From Opisthorchis felineus (taxonomy: Eukaryota; Platyhelminthes; Trematoda; Opisthorchiida; Opisthorchiidae): 64,000 nt of DNA. The notes below the pieces were generated by a model, which was not told where the DNA came from, ran no database searches, and worked only from the letters and a program-made list of their open reading frames with translations. Location of the stretch: the NCBI GenBank assembly GCA_004794785.1, contig SJOL01006406.1, forward strand, positions 151,793-215,792, read 5' to 3'. Every line of letters begins with the position of its first letter. The stretch's first letter is position 1. Below are positions 6,643 to 64,000 of this stretch, piece by piece. The translations under genes and the position numbers were made by a program.

Positions 6643-6658
6643 TGTATCTCCGGAGTTA

Positions 6659-6741
6659 GCGAAATACACTCATTTGCAAACAAATTTGTTTGTTTGCGAG
6701 AGACTCACCTGGAATCCAGCTGAATCTCTCGTTTGTGATGT
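6659..6741. repeat. Single copy of the 'CAGCTGAATCTCTCG' repeat module
   Basis: This 83-base stretch begins GCGAAATACACTCA and ends CTCGTTTGTGATGT. It is close to either arm of the palindrome at 22570-22766 and shares GAGAGACTCA and CAGCTGAATCTCTCGTTTGTG with it. Unlike the copies at 22.5, 39.4 and 62.1 kb, no hammerhead-like core precedes it. It is bracketed by near-identical 15-base direct repeats, TGTATCTCCGGAGTT at 6643-6657 and TGTATCTCTGGAGTT at 6739-6753. These could be a duplicated target or part of a tandem unit. Confidence 0.75.
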
Positions 6742-6753
6742 ATCTCTGGAGTT

Positions 6754-10079: not shown

Positions 10080-10370
10080 GAATTGTCACTGCATCGTTTC
10101 CCTAACGGTAGCGAAAAAGCCGTGACATATCTATTTCGCATGTATTAACTGCAGCGGGAAAGATTTACACTCAGGTCAAGGTGCTTCGTGGTCTACGTTT
10201 TACGATGTACACTGATCGCAAACCCATGTTATCCATCCTCGGCACCAAAAGAGGTATTCTGTGCACACAACCAATGGGCTTCAGTAGGCTACAACACTAC
10301 CGGTATACAATCTTGAACAAGGTTGTTTCGGCCAGGCAGATGCGTTTTCACGATTTACAGCCGATTTTAC
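10080..10370 (+). pseudogene. Ty3/gypsy RNase H remains
   Basis: HRFPNGSEKAVTY at about 10095 is the AHRxPDGSEKPIAY block. After frame changes, GLRFTMYTDRKPMLSILG at 10184-10240 is the GRxFTxxTDHKPLLxIxG block, which contains a catalytic Asp codon at 10214-10216. KRGILCTQPMGFSRLQ then fits KGIPxxxANRLQRW. The domain would remove the RNA strand after copying. In place of the usual His in TDHKP the sequence has Arg. It sits between the RT and integrase remains as expected for Ty3/gypsy, and the end near GQADALSRL is only partly readable near 10335-10350. Confidence 0.85.
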
Positions 10371-10639
10371 AGCTAAAATGCCAGATGAGGATTTTTGTAG
10401 CTTACATCATCACCAGCTCAGGTGTTTGGCATTTGTTTCACACGTCTGTGCATCAGTCTTCGGTTAGTACTGATGCGGTTATTGCCGAAACAGGTAAAGA
10501 TCTGGGATTACAACTCATTATGTAATATCTTCATGACAGATGGCTTACGCAATTCACTGAGTTTTATTGGAAAGTTCAAGAGGCGGGACTGTGCACTCAT
10601 GGTTACTGACGGGTGCATGATGCCATATCACTAGGTGGT

Positions 10640-11640: not shown

Positions 11641-13775
11641 TAGACATTCAAGAGGAGTTTGACCATCAACCCAGCGCCTTTGTGTAGAACCCGCGAAGAA
11701 ATCCCATCATTAATGAGTATCTTTCCTCGCAGAGAGATGAAGAAGGCAGTAAGTCTTTTGCTGTCAGGCGCGTCTGTCTCTGTGTATCTGTGGCTTTTTG
11801 TGTATCACCTCATTGTGGCATCCGGTTTCTTGTCCTCTCAAATCATGTTCATGCTTGACCTTACCCGTTATGTATTCTTGGTCAATATAGTGTCCTGTTT
11901 CGGATGATGCTTGTCAACCGATCATAACTACATACATCGATTTCTCAGCTGATTGTTATTTTCCTCTTCGAACTAGCCAAACAGCCCAACAGCTCATTAG
12001 CTGTGAAAGTGGCTGAGTCTTTGGAGACACGTGCATATTTATAGTGACAGACTTACGCGCAGCCGTATATGCCACTGTGGATGAACAACGAGATCAGCTG
12101 AGACACCCTGCGGATATCTGTTAACACAAATCAACTATCCTGTTCATGAAGGCATTACAATGATCATTACCATCGCATTGAGCAGTGGTGTCACTAGCGT
12201 CATTCGTCCATTTCCTTTTTTGACAGCACAACATCATACAGTACTATTCAAAAGGAACCTTTTAGGTTGTCGTGAATAACCAGTCTGTACAAATGTAGGA
12301 AAAGCATAATTTCATTTGCTCGGAATTGGAGCACACTTACCTCAGACTACTCGTCATTGCTAGGAGAATGGAATACCGTGGGAGCTTTGATGTCCGCAAA
12401 GTTCGATTCGTTTTTTTGGGTGTCTCCACAGACTGACTACCTCCATTACTGTACTGGTGTTCGTACTGTGTTGGTACATTTGCCGTGAGTCACTTAGGAA
12501 TGAGTCGTTTGTTTTTTATAATCAAGACAAAGTGAGTCGTGGAATGCGATGCGCCTTTCGCTGTGACGTCTGCCAGGTGCCACCGTCTGGCGCAAAATGT
12601 CCCCATCATGTAAATTCAAAACAAACTTTCTTTAAGCTCACCTGATATCTGCTTCTGTATCGTAGTTTTGGTTCTCCTGAGACTTTCGGACCAATATTCA
12701 ACTGATCACACACAATTCCCGCACGCAACTACAACCATGCGAATACGACTGATATGGATCAACCTTCGCAGCGGGTTGTGAATAAAAATATTTTTGATTT
12801 AGCACATTGTTGCCTTCCAAAGCACTTCAGCAGTCAGGTTCCGGCCTAATCAGTATGGATGTGTTTTCATCCACAGAACTTGTGGATCAAGTCGGTCGGA
12901 CTTTCGGGTGTAACAACGGTATACCTACAGTTCATGTCCCACCACTATACAGGAGTGGGATGCCACAATATACCATGCGAAGATGTTCGTGATTCTAGAC
13001 ATTCGCTCAGATTCTTTCAAGTGCTACACTAGTCTTTGATATCGGCGAGTTCAACTCTTCGCCGATCTATTGGTCGGTGGTTAATATGCTGAAATGCAGA
13101 TGAGATTGCGCACTATTCCGTTACTCTTCTTACCTATGTTAGGTATATTTTCGTGTCTCTCAGAGACCGATCGAAGGAAAACCAACTTTTTGGAATTATT
13201 TATACTTTACCTGAGACCGGATGTTGCGGACTTCGGTGATATGATATATCGCAATTGTGCTTCTGAAGGCGCAAACAGTGCGCAACCGTCCACAAAGAGC
13301 TGCGTTAGTGGCTCTATCTGTCCGATTTTTCGTTTTTCATTGAACAAATGGCCACGCAGAAAAGACTGACATATTCAATGCACCAACTGTAAATATGTTG
13401 TCCACTGACAATGTGCATAGGTATTCGACCACTGGTTTATACACAACCTTAACCACTGGACCATAGTCAGATTTCTCGGCCAGTCGATTGCACTCACGTA
13501 TGCAGAATCTTACGAGTGTAAATGCTCTCAGACCTAGTACAGGCTACGAAATCGTTAAAAACGGATCATAGTGTACATCTGTTTATCACTGGTAGGTTCA
13601 AATGTGCAGTCTCTTCTCATAGCTCGTTATCCAAACAAGCTGATATTCCAGTCGGCACACCGATATATTACCTAGAACTATTGTACCCTGTCTACTTTTT
13701 TGATAGCGGACACAAGGTTCATTACTGTTGTTACGTTGTTCTCGGTGCGACAATAGGCGCTTGTCAGAACTTAGT
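11641..13775. other. Spacer after the gypsy element
   Basis: A purine-rich run near 11733-11750 (AGAGAGATGAAGAAGG) could be a polypurine tract leading into a 3' LTR, but no paired LTR was found. The remainder has only short open frames with no motif. No tRNA or other RNA gene was recognised before the SINE. Confidence 0.35.
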
Positions 13776-21352: not shown

Positions 21353-22447
21353 GTATGGCGTGCAGTTCACAAAAACTATTAACAACCACAGTAAAACGAT
21401 TAATGTAAGAAACTGCGTCTCCTTCGGACTAGGGTGGATCAAATTACGACTTATTCAAATAGAAGAGAAAAGTGGACGGTCCAGCATACCTAAATAATGT
21501 TTTGGGGAACACTGACGTTGAATTCACCTAACTTTCTTATTTGTGTGTAAAATCCTATGTCACCTCAAAGAAGCTAAAAAATTAGGTCTTTATATCCATA
21601 TTAAATTTCAGACTCTTCGGCAGGACGCGTAAGTGAATAATGTATAAACTTTGGGAGGAGCTAAGTTGTTGCAGGATCGTGTGTCTCGTCAAGGGGGAGA
21701 ATCAATAATAACATCAAGTTAGCGCTATCCGATCAAATAAGTAAGTGCCGTTTGAAAAAGCAACCCACTTTTTACGTGTCCCTTTCAATTTTGAACATTA
21801 AACGTCCTCAAACAAAAACCAGTTCGTTTCAAATGACCATTTTCCAAAAAACGTTCCACTCTTAGCGGGTATACGTTGCCTCGAGTTCTTACTTGCAGTT
21901 GAGTGTAGTTGTGAGGGTGGGGGGTTGTGCCTTCTAATGAAGAGGAGTCCACGGAATTTGATAAGGTGCCTGTGAATATCAGTTTGTTTTCGTCCCACTG
22001 GTTTTCACTGCGGTAGGTTCAGCACCGTGGTGGGCATTGGAGGCAATGTCCGTGATTGTGCTTCAGATAAATGATACAGCCGTGTCTGAAGGAAAGTACT
22101 CATTGTGGTATGACCATTTGAATACTGCTCCAAGTGTAAAGATATGCGTTACCTCCTTATCTGTGCAAACAAATGCACAACCGCAACTTCAATAGAATCA
22201 TATGTGTCAGCGTCCGCATCCAATACTAGCCAGTCTAGGCAATGGAGTACCATATTACTAAGATAAAAATATGTCGAAATTAGGTGACGACTATCAGTTT
22301 AATGTAGAGTGAAAGTAAATGAATTTTATGCCCATATTCTGAATCAGTTAGTTCACACCCTGAGAAACCTAGTGATCGCATAATTTTGTGGTAGCCGTGC
22401 TAGCAGAAACAGCAGATTAGTTTATACGTAGTGTACTACTCATAAGG
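21353..22447. other. Spacer, nothing recognised
   Basis: No domain, RNA gene or repeat was recognised. The sequence after 21352 does not continue the gag/protease relic into RT. Confidence 0.35.
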
Positions 22448-22467
22448 TTGCTGAAAATTCTTTAACA

Positions 22468-22510
22468 GTCCACGACCGGTTTTACCCTTCTTGGGGCTCA
22501 TCAGGTAGGC
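22468..22510 (-). ncRNA. Hammerhead-ribozyme-like motif (copy A)
   Basis: Read on the minus strand the order is CTAC, CTGATGA, GCCC, CAAGAA, GGGT, AAAA, CCGGT, C, GTGG. CTGATGA (22498-22504) is the invariant first core strand. GCCC/GGGT forms stem II with a six-base loop. The second core strand should be GAA and here is AAA; the change from GGGCGAAAC to GGGTAAAAC is what CpG loss would give. ACCGGT is a perfect palindrome in the place of stem III, followed by the cleavage-site C. CTAC/GTGG closes stem I with one wobble pair. The G-to-A change in the core probably inactivates this copy. A palindromic, loopless stem III suggests a form that would act as a dimer, as known in Penelope-like elements and retrozymes. 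Confidence 0.65.
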
Positions 22511-22569
22511 GCAGTCTCCGAGTTTCCGTCAACCTCATGTTCTACCTGAAACCAAATTGCACGAAATTA

Positions 22570-22766
22570 GCGAAATACACTCACTTTCAAACAAATTTGG
22601 TTTTGCGAGAGACTCATCTGGAACCCAGCTGAATCTCTCGTTTGTGGTGTTTCCAGGCTGGTGCAGCACATTCAGCTGCCTGGAAACATCACAAACGAGA
22701 GATTCAGCTGGGTTCCGGGTGAGTCTCCCGAAAAACCAAGTTGGTTTGCAAATGTGTGTATTTCGC
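22570..22766. repeat. Palindromic module, 89-base arms, 19-base loop
   Basis: The left arm (22570-22658) and right arm (22678-22766) are inverted repeats of equal length that match at roughly nine positions in ten. Arms begin GCGAAATACAC and end GTTTCCAGGC. The loop (22659-22677) is TGGTGCAGCACATTCAGCT. It looks like two copies of the module at 6659-6741 joined head to head. Such a palindrome can fold into a long hairpin in RNA or single-stranded DNA. An open frame across it is an accident of the repeat. Confidence 0.9.
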
Positions 22767-22771
22767 CAATG

Positions 22772-39100: not shown

Positions 39101-39417
39101 TCAGATTTGTGTTTGTTCGTTTGACGCTTTGGTGCTATAAATTTAGGATCCATCCGCGACACACTTGCATAAACTCTAGAATGTTAATTTGGAGTTCTTA
39201 ATAGCAGTCTAACACAGATTTCAAGTGGTCGGTTGGACTGTATTTATTGTTGTTGTGAGCACCAGAACTGTTACGTACGTAAATCCTTACACGAAGTTTA
39301 TGGAGGGAGGCTCTTTCAAGTGGTTTTGCACATGCTTTGAAATTTGATTGATCTGCCTCCTTGTAATCAGTCGTATGGAATTATTTTACCGCAACAAGTT
39401 TTATTGAATCGGTTTGA
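36137..39417. other. Spacer, nothing recognised
   Basis: No gene, RNA or repeat was recognised. The 112-codon minus-strand open frame at 36580-36918 has no motif. A CTGATGATAAGC sequence at about 39056 only loosely resembles a hammerhead core. Confidence 0.35.
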
Positions 39418-39600
39418 CAGCTTGCTACTGGTTTTCCTTTGCTCTGGTTCCTCAGGTAGGCGTATTCAATGAGTTCCACCAATCCAATGTACCGGTTGAA
39501 CGTCTGTCTTTATATAATCGGCAAAACAGCGTCAGTTGCAAACTGAATTGAGGTTAACAAGGAACTCAGCTGAATTCGGATGAATCACTAGTGTATGATA
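39418..39600. repeat. Composite repeat, copy C, decayed
   Basis: This copy has the core region at 39425-39456 and, 66 bases from the core, the second module (39521-39596) with GGCAAAACAGC, TTGCAAAC and the shared CTCAGCTGAAT. The CAGGTAGGCG beside the core is identical to copy A. On the minus strand the core reads CTGAGGA where copy A has CTGATGA, and AAAAC where GAAAC is expected. It has only one arm and no palindrome. Confidence 0.65.
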
Positions 39601-42600
39601 TCTGTCAATAAGAACTTCATCTATGACTCAATGGAATTTCCTGCTAACACCAAAACGATTCGCAAATGATTGTGTTTATTCAGACAACCTGATGATGCTC
39701 ACCTAGGGTCACATAAGAAGCCGTAAGGTGAAACGTTTTGAAGCGATAATCGTAAATCAGTAGTAGCGGAACCTAAGATATCAGCCTATCACGGGCTTTG
39801 TCCTGACTGACGCTCATCAGATTGTGACTCGATGTTTGTGCTCAAAGTTTACTCTGCTAGCAAGGATCAAGCGCAATTTTATATCAGCTAATCAAAGTTT
39901 GGTGTTATGAACACACCACAGGGCTTATGACACCAACTGGCGACACACTGATGTTTGGAATACCTACAAAAATTTGGACCAGGATTCAGCACCGAAATCA
40001 TTGTTCTATAAATGCGGTTTGATTGAGTTGATAAATGCGCTTTATCCTTGGGTGGGAATAGTTGCTATCAATCTGTCTTATAACTGTGTCTCCGTTCCAC
40101 TTATATTAGCACCTTCTTTGCTACATACAAGCTTCACGTCAAGTACGACGATGCCTTACAATTTCCTGTCACGTTCGAACCATCCATCTGAACGTAACAC
40201 AGCATCCTGCTTCCTGTATTTGTACATTCTACAGAGTAAGCCCTATAAGGTAGATTGCAAGGTAACTAGTTTTGACAAAATCACAATATACTGGATTATT
40301 GTTAGTGTGTACCTACCAAAGCACTAGCATTTTAAAGCGTGCGCAAGCAGAGAATAAAGCACAGAGTAAGATGCAATCAGTGACAGTGAATTCGTTTTTT
40401 CCAAAAGTTGCGGGATTAGACTTCATTGTCTGGTAATTTATAAACAGAAAATATACACGTATAAATCGACGGATTCATGTTTCATCACATTCAGTGTGCG
40501 TGAATCTAAACCCAGAATTATATTTGTTACGGCAATATTTTCTAATACGGCGATATGGCTGCGCACACATGGAGGATTTGGGTTCTTAGAAAACGACAAT
40601 GGTTTCCACGACAAGGCACCATTCCTCTGATCTTTTGGTGCAGTAGTACGTGGTAATGCACAGTGTATTTTGTTTGTAACAGAGAAATCTCAGTGGATTA
40701 TCCATTATCCCAAGCAGCAAATTACCAGACACTCACATGTAAAACTTTTTGAATAAACTAAGATAAAGGGAAAGATTAAACTGTTTTTGTTCTACGCAGT
40801 TTACTAAGGATCCTTATGTTAGTAATTTGTTTTTGCAATCAAGTGTTGACCGGTACCACTTGAGCCCTACGAAAAAACCCTTAACAGAAACGGCTACAGA
40901 ATTATCACGGTTGGGGACGGATCTCACCGCCACACCAAAGCTTTAAATACTGAATATATTTTGATAAAATCTCTGTAGGGCCCTTAAATGGTTCTTTGTT
41001 AGCTGAGTGTAGGACGTTTGATAAATTCGGCTCTAATTATTGTCGCTCACCCACCTGGCACTAACCAAAGGTTCGATGTAGCGTGTATCAAGTAGTGTGA
41101 GCTACTGTTTTACTATTCACTGCGTGACTTGTCGTCTTGGTAGCCCAAGACAGTTTTTGGTCTCTGAGTAAATGTTTCTGAAAACTTTCTAGGCAAAGAA
41201 AAAGTAAGAAAGGTTGAAAAACCCTACTCTAAGGTGTCGGACGTACATTCCCAGTGGAGCTAGAAGTACAATCATGTTCATGAGTGAAGGCCAAGGATTT
41301 TGAATTTATTACTATTAGAAGATGCAATACAAGTAGGCTTTAACAAACAAACTATAAACCAGAGCGTAACGTCTGTTCTTAAAATAAATCGGCACAGTAA
41401 GATATTAATGATGTTCATATTGTTCCAACTTCTGCTATAAGTTAACACCCTTAGTCCTTTTACAGAACGTATCAAAGATACAGTACTATGTATCGTCTTA
41501 ATTTGCGTAATTTACGATGACGACTACATAAAAGACCTTTAACTTTTACCAGAATTCACTTTATTTTAGATTAACTATTGGTTGCTTTATCCAAGCATTT
41601 TGAAACAAGTTTGATTTGCATTCTACTGTTGAGTTTTGATTGGGATTTGTTATGTTCAAGAAAATAATTTGTGTGTTTGTATGACGTCTTTCTGGCATTG
41701 CCGAGAATATAGGTTTAGGTTCGCCTTACTGACAAAATGTTTGTCAGCAGACTTCACGGTTTTACACGCTTACAGATTTGAACATCGCAGTGGTCAGTGA
41801 GCACCACACTATAAATCGCAAGTTCCAAGTTTTTTTGTCAAATTGGATATTTCACCACACTATTGGATGAGAAAACTAAAGCATAAGTTCTGGCAGTAAA
41901 CCAAACTATATAAGAGCTCGTAAGTTCTCGATCGAGCTTTAGTGTTGCTCCAAAAAAGTAAAGACCACTGTACAGCTGATTCATATTTATTGCTATTCAT
42001 TTGCAGGACATATTTCATGAGAATCTAGTATGATTCGAAGTTTAAACCGTCCCGTTACCAGCAAGGTGTGGCAATGCTCATTCCTCAATCCCGGAGTTCA
42101 CATCACATGGTCACCTATTGGCTAGAATTCAAATGACTTCTTCTCAGATGGGATGTTAACCCATCCTTTAAATTATCCCTCCTTCAAAGCTTCATGTATT
42201 TTGTTGACAGTCTGAGAAGAACTGGAAGTTTAAAATCAAGCTTTCGTCCTGTAAGTTAAGCCCTTTTTTGTCAAAGCAGAAAGAACCACCGTACAACCGT
42301 TTTTATCCTTTCTTAAAATTATTAGAGTGCGTTATCGACTTTTGAAAACAACAAGTAAATCCCTTTGGAAAGGTTTAGGTGTCAAGGCCAATTTTATTTG
42401 CACAAAGTATAAATAATGTTAAACTTTCGCAGTGTCTACGCTGTGGAGATTGAAGGCAATAAAAAATGAATAAAAAACGTAAACAAATAAAGGTGTTAAT
42501 TCAGTAATCCGTTTAGGCTACTTTTGTGCCTTGTAACCCATCCCTAGAGAGCTTTTAGAAGGGAAACAATAGGTCTATGATAGCAAACTGCTAATCAAAA

Positions 42601-51769: not shown

Positions 51770-52206
51770 ACTAAGTCTGGGTTAGGCCATGTATTGCAAA
51801 TGTGGAACCATCATTTGCCGAAGAGCATGCTGTTTTCCATGTTCGATTCAGGGTGGCGGAATTAGAGAGGTGGCCAACCGTTGACCTGGCAGAGGGGTAT
51901 GAAACAGATAACGATTCATTTGGGTGCTGTCGGGGCTACTCACCTAACAGGATGGGGATCGTGTGGTCCCCACTACGCCTGGTTGAAGGCGCCGCAAGAT
52001 ATGGCTGCTAACCGACGTCAGTGGCGTTATTGTTGTCAGTTCCCACCCAGGTGTAGGCACCTGGAATGATTGTAGTAAGGTAGCACTAAGTCCCTCCCCT
52101 GTCCTCCTTTATTCTTTTCTTCACAATAAGGCTTTCAAATAGATCATGGTTGTACGGCAGTGAAGCCTCAGTGTTGAACTTTAATTTCATGCTGTCCATG
52201 CTGTCC

Positions 52207-52278
<72 letters not shown>
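51770..52278 (+). mobile_element. 3' end of an RTE-like LINE with (ATG)n tail
   Basis: From 51782 one frame reads LGHVLQM, then after 30 residues a stop (TAG, 51863-51865), RGGQPLTWQRGMK, LTGWGSCGPHYAWLK and APQDMAANRRQWRYCCQF, ending at the TGA at 52067. These are the closing blocks of RTE-like LINE polyproteins (RWLGHVLRM, RGGQxxTWxRxMK, LxxxAQDRxxWR). The RT and endonuclease are absent: the copy is 5'-truncated, as is usual when reverse transcription stops early. A short 3' untranslated part with GTCCCTCCCCTGTCC is followed by the tail. There is only one in-frame stop in about 95 codons, so it is fairly young beside the gypsy relics. Confidence 0.85.
52207..52278 (+). repeat. (ATG)24 microsatellite, LINE tail
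   Basis: Twenty-four perfect ATG units, preceded by a duplicated CTGTCC-ATG. It sits at the 3' end of the LINE, where RTE-type elements often carry short tandem repeats instead of poly(A). A run of Met codons in one frame is a by-product, not a gene. Confidence 0.95.
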
Positions 52279-59945: not shown

Positions 59946-62107
59946 CTGAAAAGGAGAACAAAAGAGTAGCAAGTTTTATCTTTTTCCTTTTGAGCACTGG
60001 AGATGGCATGGTAAGTCCCAAAAGCTTAAATTGTCGGTTTATCCTCTCTGCTTGTTTTTTTTTTTGAGATTAATATTCCGTTGTTTGTGCTGATTGAAAG
60101 GCGTGTGATCAACCAGAATCATGGACCAGCACTTCCCGTTTCGGAAGAAGTACTTTGTGGTTTTCGTTTTCATTTTGTGAAAAGTTTGGGAAAAATCGGT
60201 AGATCTGTTTTTGGGCGATGTTTCGCTTTTGACACAAAAGCTTCGTCAGTTCAGATGACTAAGTTCGAGGTTGGTCAAGAGTTAAGGCGGAAGAGGAACC
60301 AATCCGTTACGTCAAGCTAAATCTGTGTTTGGTGCCGGTCAAGGGATTTGTGTGTTAGGGTGGACCACCAAGTACTAAGCCAATGGAGAAACCTACATGG
60401 ATTTGGGTTCAGCTAAGAGTCTAGTTCTTCCGGTTCGGTTCACGTGAAGATCCCTCTTGAACCTCTTTTGTACTTTTCGTCCGTCCGTGTGGTGAGCTAG
60501 TGCTACGATAGTTGTGTAGGGGAGAGGGATTCTGTTAACTCTGGTAGGGTTGGGATTTCTACCCCTTTTTTTCCTAATGATTCTACATGCATTGACAACC
60601 ACATACAGTCACCTGTCAACTCGGCTTATCTAAGACCGCTCTCCGTACGTTCGCCAGTTCCACACCCACGATTTTATGCACGCTGTCATGCTTCGTAAGT
60701 TGCACCGCCTCGACCCGACTGGATATCAAGTGGTCGTTTGAATATCTGTTCGTAATTTTCAGCTAAACTACTTCCTCTTATAGAGTTGAACCAGACATTC
60801 TTTTCATTAGCTGTTTTGCTCTGCAATGAGCTTGTTGGATGTATCAAGCTGAGGAAATTTTACACATTCTTCGGAGTCCTTTTTTCCCGCATTTATTAGT
60901 CATTATGGGACAATCAAGCTTCTCAGTCAAAAGACGTACACTTTTCACTTGATTGCTGGCTGTCCGTCAAATGACGTTTTATTCTGCGCCAATCTGATGC
61001 CGAGTGGATTTAGATTCTTATCCAAGAGCCTCCTAGTTGTTAATGCTCTACCTCAAACAGGGACCCCAGCTCCTGCAGGGTTTCAGATAGTAATAGTAAG
61101 AGCCTGTGCAGGAAAATGGGTTGACCGAGAGAGATTTAAGTTTATATTTTGACCAATCTGTTCCAAATCGCTGTTGAGGTATGGGCGGATTTTTCCTTTG
61201 GATAGCGCAAAGGAATGAAGCACTGTGGAAGTAGGTGATCGCAGCCAACATAGGCACCCCCAGAACGAACAACATCCAATAAATGTCTTAAGCTAACTAT
61301 GGCTGATGGTGATGTGACCTCTTTTCCTTTAATGTTGGCTTGTACATTAGGAGCAAAATGTAGCCAGGTGGTTTCGGTTGCTTCGGAAGTTGATGCGGCG
61401 CGGAAACAGTGTGACCAATATCAGGCTCCAACCGCTTCACTTCAGCTTTCGGGACTTAGCAGTGCTAAGTCAACCTACTTGAGCGGTAATGGTTTCAGCA
61501 TCCGGAACAATATGTGTTTCTAGTCCACCGTAATAAAGCACTCAAAACACAGTAGGAAGTTTCTTTAGGGATGCCAGAATATCAGTCTTTTGGGGCGTAA
61601 ACAGGAACGAGTTACAGGCAACGGTCACCAACGCTTTTGAAGGATGGCTTTCCAGGCACTTCTAAACGAACCACGTAAAGGTGACTAGTAACGGGTATCT
61701 GATTGAGTAGAGGTCTGCCCGACGGTTTAGGACAATATCAAACTCGGTGGAACACGTCAATTCCGTTTCTGGAGGACCAGAGGCGCGTGACCGGATGCGC
61801 CTGGGAGAACTTTTCAACAGATATAATTGGACCTTGGGTTTTTGACTGAAGTAATAAATCACACATCAGTGGCAAACAAGCACGACCTGTATGTAGGAAA
61901 CCCTTGCTGTCCAGAGAGAGAGAGAGTCAACGTAAAATACTGTAAGAAATACTGAGCAGCGAATTTCGAAGAAAAACTTCAGTGTCCATAACCGTGTATA
62001 GGTTACGGCTTCCTAACTGAAAGCTGACAAGTTAATGACTTTGGATTAACAAAGTATCCATCCAAAGGCAGTTTCAGTTCATTTTCTTGGCGGAACATGC
62101 CATGACT
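59946..62107. other. Upstream of the exon pair; no further exon found
   Basis: Earlier exons of the minus-strand gene are expected to the right, but none has a donor in the needed phase that I would trust. Open frames at 60393-60602 (minus, Arg/Lys-rich) and 61299-61523 (plus, 74 codons, starting MADGDVTSFPLMLAC) lack recognisable motifs and could be chance or old repeats. Confidence 0.3.
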
Positions 62108-62308
62108 GAGTTCGCTGAAAATTCTTCTATAACCCGTGACCAGTTTCGCCATTCTTGGGGCTCACCAAGTATGTGTAGTTCCCGAGGTTCTCTCAACTGT
62201 AGGTCTTACTTGGACCCAAATTGGAAGCAATTCGCAAAACACTTCCTTGCATACAATTTTGGCTTTAAGGGAAACTCAGCTGAATCCAGCTGAATTTCTT
62301 GTTTATGC
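62108..62308. repeat. Composite repeat, copy B: hammerhead-like core plus single arm
   Basis: CTGAAAATTCTT at 62115 lies 23 bases before GACCAG, the same distance as in copy A. The core is followed after 65 bases by the second module (62234-62308), with GCAAAACAC, CCAGCTGAATTTCTTGTTT and no palindrome. It is clearly a copy of the family, diverged by many substitutions. No open frame here is meaningful. Confidence 0.75.
62134..62175 (-). ncRNA. Hammerhead-ribozyme-like motif (copy B)
   Basis: On the minus strand GGCGAAAC (62143-62150) keeps the second core strand intact, and ACTGGT then C keeps the stem III palindrome (with one wobble pair) and the cleavage-site base. Stem II is GCC/GGC around CCAAGAAT. 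The first core strand is damaged: CTTGGTGA (62162-62169) in place of CTGATGA. It therefore complements copy A: each keeps the half the other has lost, so the shared ancestor fits the full motif. Confidence 0.6.
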
Positions 62309-64000
62309 TCTTCTTCTTTAGTTTCCTTTGTTCCCCCTGTTTCTGATTTGTTTATCTAAACTGTTCAGAAAACCGCCGACGGACTGCAAAATAGCGTGGA
62401 TTCAGCAAAACTGGTTAAGGCAGACGATAAACACATTGAGTAAGAGAAGTAAATACTGGACGTGGAGCTACGTTTATTCTCCGTGGAGAAATATGACAAA
62501 TATGCAGATGTATTGGAATCTACCGAACAGCATTTCGTCGTAGGTGTTATCGTTTTGTTGTGTATATTCTCTAGCATTACTATGAAAGCCATTCGCCTGC
62601 TCGGAACTGTCCGATTATCAGTTAACTGCTGCAAAATATAGTTCAAAATAGAAGTTCATCATCATATAGCCACCCAGTTCCTTTTTATAGGTGTTCTGTG
62701 CAGTTTACTACACACTAAGCTCAAATATACAGTTTCTGTTCAAATTCGAACTCAGACACTACAAATCCTGAATCAACTAGTAATTGCTAGGGAGACTGTT
62801 CTTTCCTTCCTCGCCACGTAGTGCGCTTCAGCACTGATATCTCTTGAGCCCTAGGGTTGGAATTCAAAGTGCTCCATGAGTTTTCTTTCTAAAGTGTTTT
62901 CAACTAGCGTACAAAGTCCCATCCTCACGTTTTGTGATCTAAGAGCCCAAACACTAGTCAATCAATAACATCTAAGACTTCGACTTTCCAGCAGCATTCA
63001 CCGGATATTGTGTGTTCTGCTGGACAAGTAAGACTTTAACCCGTCCGAAATACGAAATTATTTGAGTAAATTGGAGAATAACTTTGGTGGCTTTGCTGGG
63101 AATAGTCGAGGCTTGAGGCCGTCAGCACAAAAATTTGAAAGTTATTTACACTAATGTACCCCATACGTTTTCGATGATCTTTGTAGTAACAAATGCTGAA
63201 GAAAGATAGATAAAAAACCACAGCTCCTTTTTGCTATATTTGGTTGTTTCTTTGGCATCACCAGACCCAGATTTTGATAAGCAAAATTACAGCAGGTAAA
63301 ACTGTAAACGATAGGTCACGCCAGTGGTAACAGCCCACAATATTAGGGCACCAATGTCTGTGGCTTCGCTGTAGTGCAAATAGATCTCGATACATTTTCC
63401 CACTCATCAGATCACAGATAACATCGACATTTCCAAAAGGCTCTGGTGCAAATACTATTGTTGCAACTTGCCCAAAGGAGAGAGCCCTTATTCCAATTGC
63501 GGTCTTTGGAGTACTTTCATGTGATTGTCACCGGATTCCCCATGATCCCAAACTGTCACCTTTTTGCGGCGTTCGGGCTTTAGTTTTGCAATGATCCTTG
63601 AGATGTTGCTGGCTAAAACGAAGTACTTTTGGTTTAAAGATGCTAATGATGCCAACGGAGAGCAGACCGATAGAGAACAGTGATTCCTCTTTCTACAAAA
63701 ATAACTCATATTACTAGGTGGCTAACTAGGTTGGATAAAATAGTATGACTCGTTTTATCAGAAGTGTAGAAACATTAAATTAATTCACCAAAGAGGCATC
63801 CAGCCGTAAAGTCAAAATTGATGTCTTTTGCCCGATTGTGAAGAGGTTGGGTCACTTAAATCCAGAAAAACGCACACTCCGATTAGTCTGCAGTTCCCGC
63901 CGGTTCAAGGCAGTTCCTCCGTGAATTTTGAAACGGGTATTTTGGTCAAATCAACTAGATAGAATACCAGAAATAACCCTAATTACTACTTTGAATATCA
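62309..64000. other. No recognisable gene; weak coding-like segment on minus strand
   Basis: Between 63709 and 63220 on the minus strand two adjoining frames give protein-like text in succession, treated as a finding. No family match, good splice sites or repeats were recognised elsewhere. Confidence 0.3.

Follow-up and report, generated by a model that had tools for sequence, protein, structure and literature searches.

Positions 22448–22771 of a 64,000-nt stretch of Opisthorchis felineus DNA (the window, meaning the whole stretch that was analysed) read on the minus strand like the parts of a hammerhead ribozyme beside an inverted repeat. What kind of element carries this motif, and how was it inserted? 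The original prediction held that three dispersed copies at 22.5, 39.4 and 62.1 kb share a minus-strand, dimer-type hammerhead core that is damaged differently in each, and that the core is linked to a second, sometimes palindromic module. Our results argue that the repeat is a non-autonomous, non-coding metazoan non-LTR retrozyme, twin-primed at two sites that we call A and B and probably moved by a Penelope-like element (PLE). We give this joint explanation a probability of about 0.68.

Copies of the repeat in the window

All three copies were found, at 22420–22770, about 39394–39684 and about 62075–62316, together with a fourth piece at 6651–6744 that has no core. Their features, with identities to the repeat units described below, are:

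6651–6744, minus strand: arm-only fragment of the repeat family (unit 128–219, 90%), ending at site B, without ribozyme
22420–22770, minus strand: whole head-to-head element copy, outer ends at sites A and B
22420–22658, minus strand: forward arm of the 22.5-kb copy, 92% to the 307-nt unit, RNA 3' end at site A (22420)
22452–22519, minus strand: decayed type I hammerhead region, from core layout in the sequence, Rfam match and family alignment
22504–22498, minus strand: CTGATGA; 22497–22494/22487–22484: stem II
22483–22481, minus strand: GAA position (AAA here); 22480–22475: ACCGGT; 22474: cleavage-site C
22658–22770, plus strand: inverted arm of the 22.5-kb copy (unit 103–215), 93%, RNA 3' end at site B (22770)
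39394–39599, minus strand: forward arm of an old copy, hammerhead badly decayed, 63% to the 307-nt unit over 39413–39599
39610–39684, plus strand: inverted arm belonging to the 39.4-kb copy, with 70% identity to the 293-nt subfamily
62075–62316, minus strand: forward arm of an old copy, decayed hammerhead at 62116–62183, 75% to the 307-nt unit over 62109–62312

Read on the minus strand, 22448–22771 holds CTGATGA, GCCC/GGGT, the GAA position, ACCGGT and the C, plus a 98-nt inverted repeat. The damage does differ among copies, as predicted: the 22.5-kb copy has lost the first base of GAA, the 62.1-kb copy deviates from CTGATGA at two bases, and none of the three keeps an intact core. Hammerhead_HH9 is the only Rfam hammerhead family matched in the window, at 22518–22455 on the minus strand, with 25 bits (E 0.07) against a gathering score of 52.

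Mapping the repeat unit onto the loci did away with the second module as an independent entity, since it is the ~307-nt unit itself, inverted (about positions 103–215). In the 22.5-kb copy, the forward arm comprises unit positions 123–307 and then 1–54 on the minus strand, and the inverted arm comprises 103–215 on the plus strand. We looked for a target-site duplication around this copy, which is old, and recognised none. The 39.4- and 62.1-kb copies are older than the 22.5-kb copy, and a search for an inverted arm in the 62.1-kb copy found none.

A genome-wide family of tandem units

When the 630-Mb genome was searched with a 31-nt core pattern allowing up to three mismatches, 11,590 matches were returned (5717 + 5873), compared to 0 (0 + 0) for the reversed pattern. 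A whole-genome search with the 22448–22771 stretch gave at least 95 scored matches. Well-kept copies (for example L019, L003 and L042) form head-to-tail arrays with a period of ~307 bp. On C14, 11 core matches follow one another at 307-bp spacing in a single array, and the pieces of this array that we checked contain four and five consecutive units that are letter-for-letter identical, which suggests that this retrozyme family was probably active recently.

The 307-bp unit has a GC content of 46.3%, its longest stop-free run is 66 aa across four tandem units, and no LTR-type ends were seen on the retrozyme copies. The frame for reverse transcriptase (RT) plus GIY-YIG that belongs to a Penelope-like element is absent from the unit. 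With tandem units within 150–450 bp, one type I hammerhead and GC below 50%, the family has the make-up of metazoan non-LTR retrozymes. Units of 293 and 304 bp, which we took from loci chosen for a perfect core, also occur. What the three unit types share is the ribozyme, together with the helix that closes it, and positions ~57–118; they diverge to varying degrees in the A loop, the 141–175 hairpin and the B region. One 293-nt unit (L066:2251–2543) has its B region swapped for another sequence that ends in a hairpin, formed with neighbouring unit sequence at positions ~231–245.

Conservation and pairing of the hammerhead

The prediction depended on the family keeping both CTGATGA and GAA. These are indeed its commonest bases: G occupies the first GAA position in 101 of the 118 copies aligned, a set that includes 46 fetched by their core, and in 56 of the 67 copies that were not fetched by their core. 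The majority sequence has the CUGANGA and GAA core, three helices and H17 of a type I hammerhead. Its helix III, ACCGGU, can be read either as a lone A-U pair capped by the palindromic CCGG or as six pairs between two ribozymes. Judged from these sequences, the family carries a dimer-type type I hammerhead motif with a weak, palindromic helix III, and its self-cleavage is putative.

A further expectation was that the core would be better conserved than its flanks. We compared identities in 72 copies whose selection did not involve the core: CTGATGA plus GAA reaches 88.2%, helix I plus flank 86.1%, loop II 80.8% and the cleavage-site C only 75%; with five antisense mis-hits taken out, the 67 remaining rows give 91.8, 87.9, 86.8 and 80.6%, respectively. 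In these decayed copies, then, the core is preserved just a little better than its surroundings, so the expectation held by a small margin. A mild excess is what dead copies would be expected to show. Two alignments, A1 and A2, kept 63 and 52 of the 72 rows. Of the 10 core columns, 9 attain at least 90% in the 52 hand-picked rows, compared to 29 of 58 other columns (one-sided Fisher p 0.018), although the dropping by hand of rows that were identical, gapped or short, or palindrome mis-hits biases both alignments toward conservation.

Helix I and stem II are paired in 86–93% of cells. In all, 88.7% of cells are paired, compared to 87.7 ± 0.4 in shuffles (2 of 500 as high) and 29–42% in slid structures. 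Stem covariation, which the prediction had proposed as a check, is present but weak: both-side changes occur in 10 cells compared to 5.0 ± 1.9 in shuffles (9 of 500 as high), for example stem II C-G to U-A in two rows, but further pair types are not above shuffling. HH9 matches the better-kept copies L019, L042, L053 and L069 with 33–40 bits (best 39.5; E 3e-5 to 3e-7), yet in none of these four scanned loci, as in the window, is the gathering score reached. Rfam matches to WsnRNA46, MIR9555 and mir-87 on L019 and L069 lie on inverted arms, and we took them to be spurious.

In a free fold of one 68-nt copy, helix I and stem II form and three core bases pair with the ACCGGU stretch. When two copies were co-folded, the expected ACCGGU:ACCGGU helix was not the best structure.

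Head-to-head copies end at two fixed RNA positions

In ribozyme sense, a typical copy runs through an inverted arm from ~214 to ~110, a forward arm from ~122 to 307 and then 1 to ~50. The inner junction of these head-to-head copies is variable, whereas their outer ends fall at two constant RNA positions past the cleavage site: A at 31–64 nt and B at 208–214 nt, in the 18 A+B elements with duplications. Loci L002–L030, obtained with the inverted query, and the window together contain 37 elements of which 29 are two-ended (22 A+B, 1 A+A, 1 B+B and 5 other). We picked L031–L080 by the ribozyme core alone, which avoids the bias of that query. This sample holds 47 elements, 26 with two RNA-3' outer ends (17 A+B, 1 B+B, 5 A plus other, 3 B plus other) and 21 with one. 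Pooling gives 55 two-ended elements, among which A+A occurs once and B+B twice, and 13 have one end unassigned. Duplicate loci (L001, L024, L041 and L043–L052) were left out.

Target-site duplications were surveyed in 84 of 90 elements, six near locus ends being left out. At a score of at least 10, duplications are recognisable in 20 of the 84, and in 0 mismatched pairings. Their median length is 13 bp (range 9–16; 23 of the 84 elements at a score of at least 9), above the 4 bp that retrozyme duplications exceed. Only a minority of copies therefore has a recognisable duplication, but where present it flanks the entire head-to-head composite, which implies that in these copies the head-to-head form arose at insertion and not by later rearrangement. 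L010 has a duplication and ends that are not A+B.

In 20 of the 39 A+B elements, the window copy among them, the inverted arm has at least 15 unit positions that are missing from the forward arm. Twelve of these 20 come from the 17 core-sampled A+B elements, and six have duplications (L007, L035, L039, L057, L063 and L071). Such extra sequence suggests that two cDNAs were started independently. Twin priming explains the inverted arm best: reverse transcription would start twice, once on each strand of a staggered break. An inverted terminal copy, a duplication and two internal RNA starts together make up an insertion anatomy of the PLE type.

Among the one-ended elements of the core-sampled loci, 8 of 21 start at unit position 231–237, a further fixed point. 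This start lies about 40–46 nt upstream of CTGATGA in several subfamilies (L038, L040, L053, L059, L065, L066, L077 and L078), and is perhaps an RNA 5' end or a strong reverse transcriptase stop.

Target and RNA share microhomology of 2.4 nt at A, where the swap control has a mean of 0.76 and a highest value of 1.5 in 500 swaps, and of 1.7 nt at B, where the corresponding control figures are 0.63 and 1.33. These values may be inflated since the duplication finder picks the longest shared stretch and the swap control covers only part of this effect. The circular fold of the unit reaches −99 kcal/mol, compared to −76 ± 6 for mononucleotide shuffles. In this predicted structure a long helix extends from hammerhead helix I, and its distal end carries A (38–60) and B (195–217) in stem-loops. 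Folding of three 293-nt units that are close relatives predicts the B stem-loop in every one and the A hairpin in two (L065 and L040); the predicted folds of the 304-nt unit and of L066 differ at the A and B regions.

Penelope-like elements in the same genome

A PLE RT query gave 150 scored matches of 2853 candidates, and 16 of the 150 lie in open frames of 780–860 aa. A GIY-YIG fragment adjoins the RT fragment in L084. At L087:552, L088:583 and L089:522, a PLE minimal hammerhead with a palindromic ACGT helix III overlaps the start of the reading frame. Some RT matches fall within overlong frames (C733:254302, 5323 aa; C1498:562667, 4871 aa; C366:114798, 4497 aa), perhaps in-frame tandem copies.

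One PLE insertion, on C1447, was confirmed with a duplication, which is 14 bp long (TTGATACGACCTTG). The left arm of this copy is inverted, and by manual count its outer ends fall about 58 and 94 nt beyond the presumed hammerhead cut, with about 36 nt between them, an arrangement that matches published PLE anatomy (PMC3846280 and PMC11167929). This copy and the retrozyme have duplications of similar length, arms arranged head-to-head and internal starts, but they differ in sequence and in the spacing of their ends (~165 nt in the retrozyme, about 36 nt in the PLE copy). We infer that the protein that moves the retrozyme most likely comes from the PLEs, which are abundant in the same genome. 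PLEs are named a strong or likely candidate for this role, without demonstration, in the portions of PMC7229834 and PMC7761336 available to us.

The retrozyme unit showed no significant similarity in sequence to two PLE start regions, and on this ground we rejected the PLE pLTR as its direct sequence ancestor. We interpret a likeness beside a PLE in L083 as an old retrozyme copy nested there rather than as ancestry. We also set aside a head-to-head PLE pair on C1743, in which 321 of 331 fetched bases mirror perfectly. Because this contig palindrome runs past the element, other head-to-head PLE pairs were not counted as evidence. The 321-nt perfect mirror, which reaches past the PLE (L092/L093; C1743:7230–7560 and 12520–12850) could be a recent inverted duplication or an assembly artefact, and is likely the latter.

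Alternative explanations and a proposed insertion cycle

A chance core inside an unrelated palindromic repeat, such as a MITE, would fit the weak Rfam score in the window, but it is contradicted by the genome-wide core count against the empty reversed control, the target duplications, the conserved core, the 33–40-bit copies and the pairing test, and we find it scarcely credible. Snap-back, in which one cDNA primes itself and yields a palindrome, has been proposed for rotifer Penelope copies, and the consulted part of PMC3846280 discusses self-priming for palindromic junctions. The arms do overlap, many inner junctions of the mapped loci fall in one region (about unit positions 54–148), and the inverted arm contributes under 15 new positions in 19 of the 39 A+B elements, so self-priming may apply to some copies. 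The other 20 hold inverted-arm sequence missing from the forward arm, which rules it out as the general mechanism; moreover, the inverted arm has a constant outer end, at B, and starts there with target microhomology. We consider snap-back very unlikely.

Two further possibilities concern the machinery. The retrozyme could be moved by a LINE, for example of the RTE or CR1 type, via ordinary LINE twin priming instead of by a PLE. Twin priming and 7–20-bp duplications are known for LINE-1, and the retrozyme does not share sequence with the two PLE start regions. However, both of its start sites are fixed, internal and within predicted stem-loops, an A-tail was not seen by eye at the printed ends, a PLE of the same genome (C1447) has matching anatomy, and hammerheads are common to the retrozyme and PLEs, all of which makes a LINE an unlikely vehicle. 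It is also conceivable, though we doubt it, that the ribozyme is a passenger on a linear multimeric RNA whose 5' end is fixed near 231–237, and that cleavage has no role in spread. The one-ended elements that start there, within a few nucleotides for any subfamily unit, speak for this, as do PLE hammerhead mutants that still insert in vitro, according to the accessible text of PMC11167929. Yet the core remains the commonest sequence across subfamilies that are 73–89% alike overall (units from core-matched loci), and the identical units within arrays hint at a circle or multimer on which copying rolled.

Under our preferred reading, twin priming by a PLE protein, a multimeric transcript would be cut by paired hammerheads, and the RNA is predicted by folding to form a long rod out of helix I with stem-loops A and B at its far end. 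A retrotransposon protein would then cleave the two strands of the target at points offset by about 13 nt, as the duplications suggest, and the free 3' ends would prime reverse transcription, one at A and the other at B, apparently helped by 0–7 nt of microhomology, as the swap statistics indicate. The two cDNAs would meet and be joined at a variable inner point, giving the head-to-head geometry seen in the copies. One could go further and propose that the retrozyme RNA mimics Penelope RNA by offering two docking stem-loops, one per 3' end, that insertions are usually two-stranded, and that the family records PLE-moved retrozymes; we put the odds of this broader proposal at about even.

Relation to known systems

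The original prediction also suggested that the linkage of the core to the second module might be new. As a hammerhead repeat the family is ordinary: PMC7229834, as far as its text was available, already describes type I hammerheads in 150–450-bp tandem units, so the presence of a ribozyme in such a repeat is not novel. The metazoan non-LTR retrozymes of that paper are like ours in their type I hammerhead, ~300-bp tandem units, lack of a reading frame, GC below 50%, duplications longer than 4 bp and PLEs in the same genome, but head-to-head copies with two fixed RNA ends are not described in the sections seen. These paired fixed ends are the less expected part, and make the family new as a variant. 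Among the literature matches listed, drawn from a coverage mostly outside subscription journals, no title concerned fixed twin-primed retrozyme ends.

By description only, the family can also be likened to schistosome SM-alpha, a SINE-like 335-bp repeat with a type I hammerhead, and to axolotl HHR_Amex1, which has a one-pair helix III closed by a palindromic tetraloop. In the excerpts of PMC8490949, however, the inverted repeats within SM-alpha and W-elements flank predicted miRNA and snoRNA parts, and fixed twin ends are not mentioned. The excerpted PMC7229834 reports that HHR_Amex1 cleaves far better as a dimer, and well only in that form.

PLEs share with the retrozyme tandem and inverted terminal copies, target duplications, an internal start in a stem-loop and a minimal hammerhead, but unlike it they encode RT and a GIY-YIG endonuclease, and their starts are 30–40 nt apart (PMC3846280 and PMC11167929, both in part). 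The same portions describe rotifer PLE copies with inverted pLTRs, 8–10-bp duplications and an optional 31-bp tail (PMC3846280), and a PLE protein that extends both target strands and initiates inside a stem-loop (PMC11167929). If the twin-primed ends hold, elements such as ours would be tied to Penelope-type retrotransposons, and paired two-strand priming could be a usual insertion route for a small retroelement. Which enzyme moves animal retrozymes becomes a question that can be tested in vitro, given fixed start sites and long-frame PLEs in the same genome.

Other features of the window

Pfam matched none of eight reading frames in the window, and one protein search gave no hit. One frame, at 10112–10525, has no Pfam match and by eye resembles what we take to be the RNase H stretch of a Gypsy-type retrotransposon. 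A run of ATG trinucleotide repeats occupies 52198–52278.
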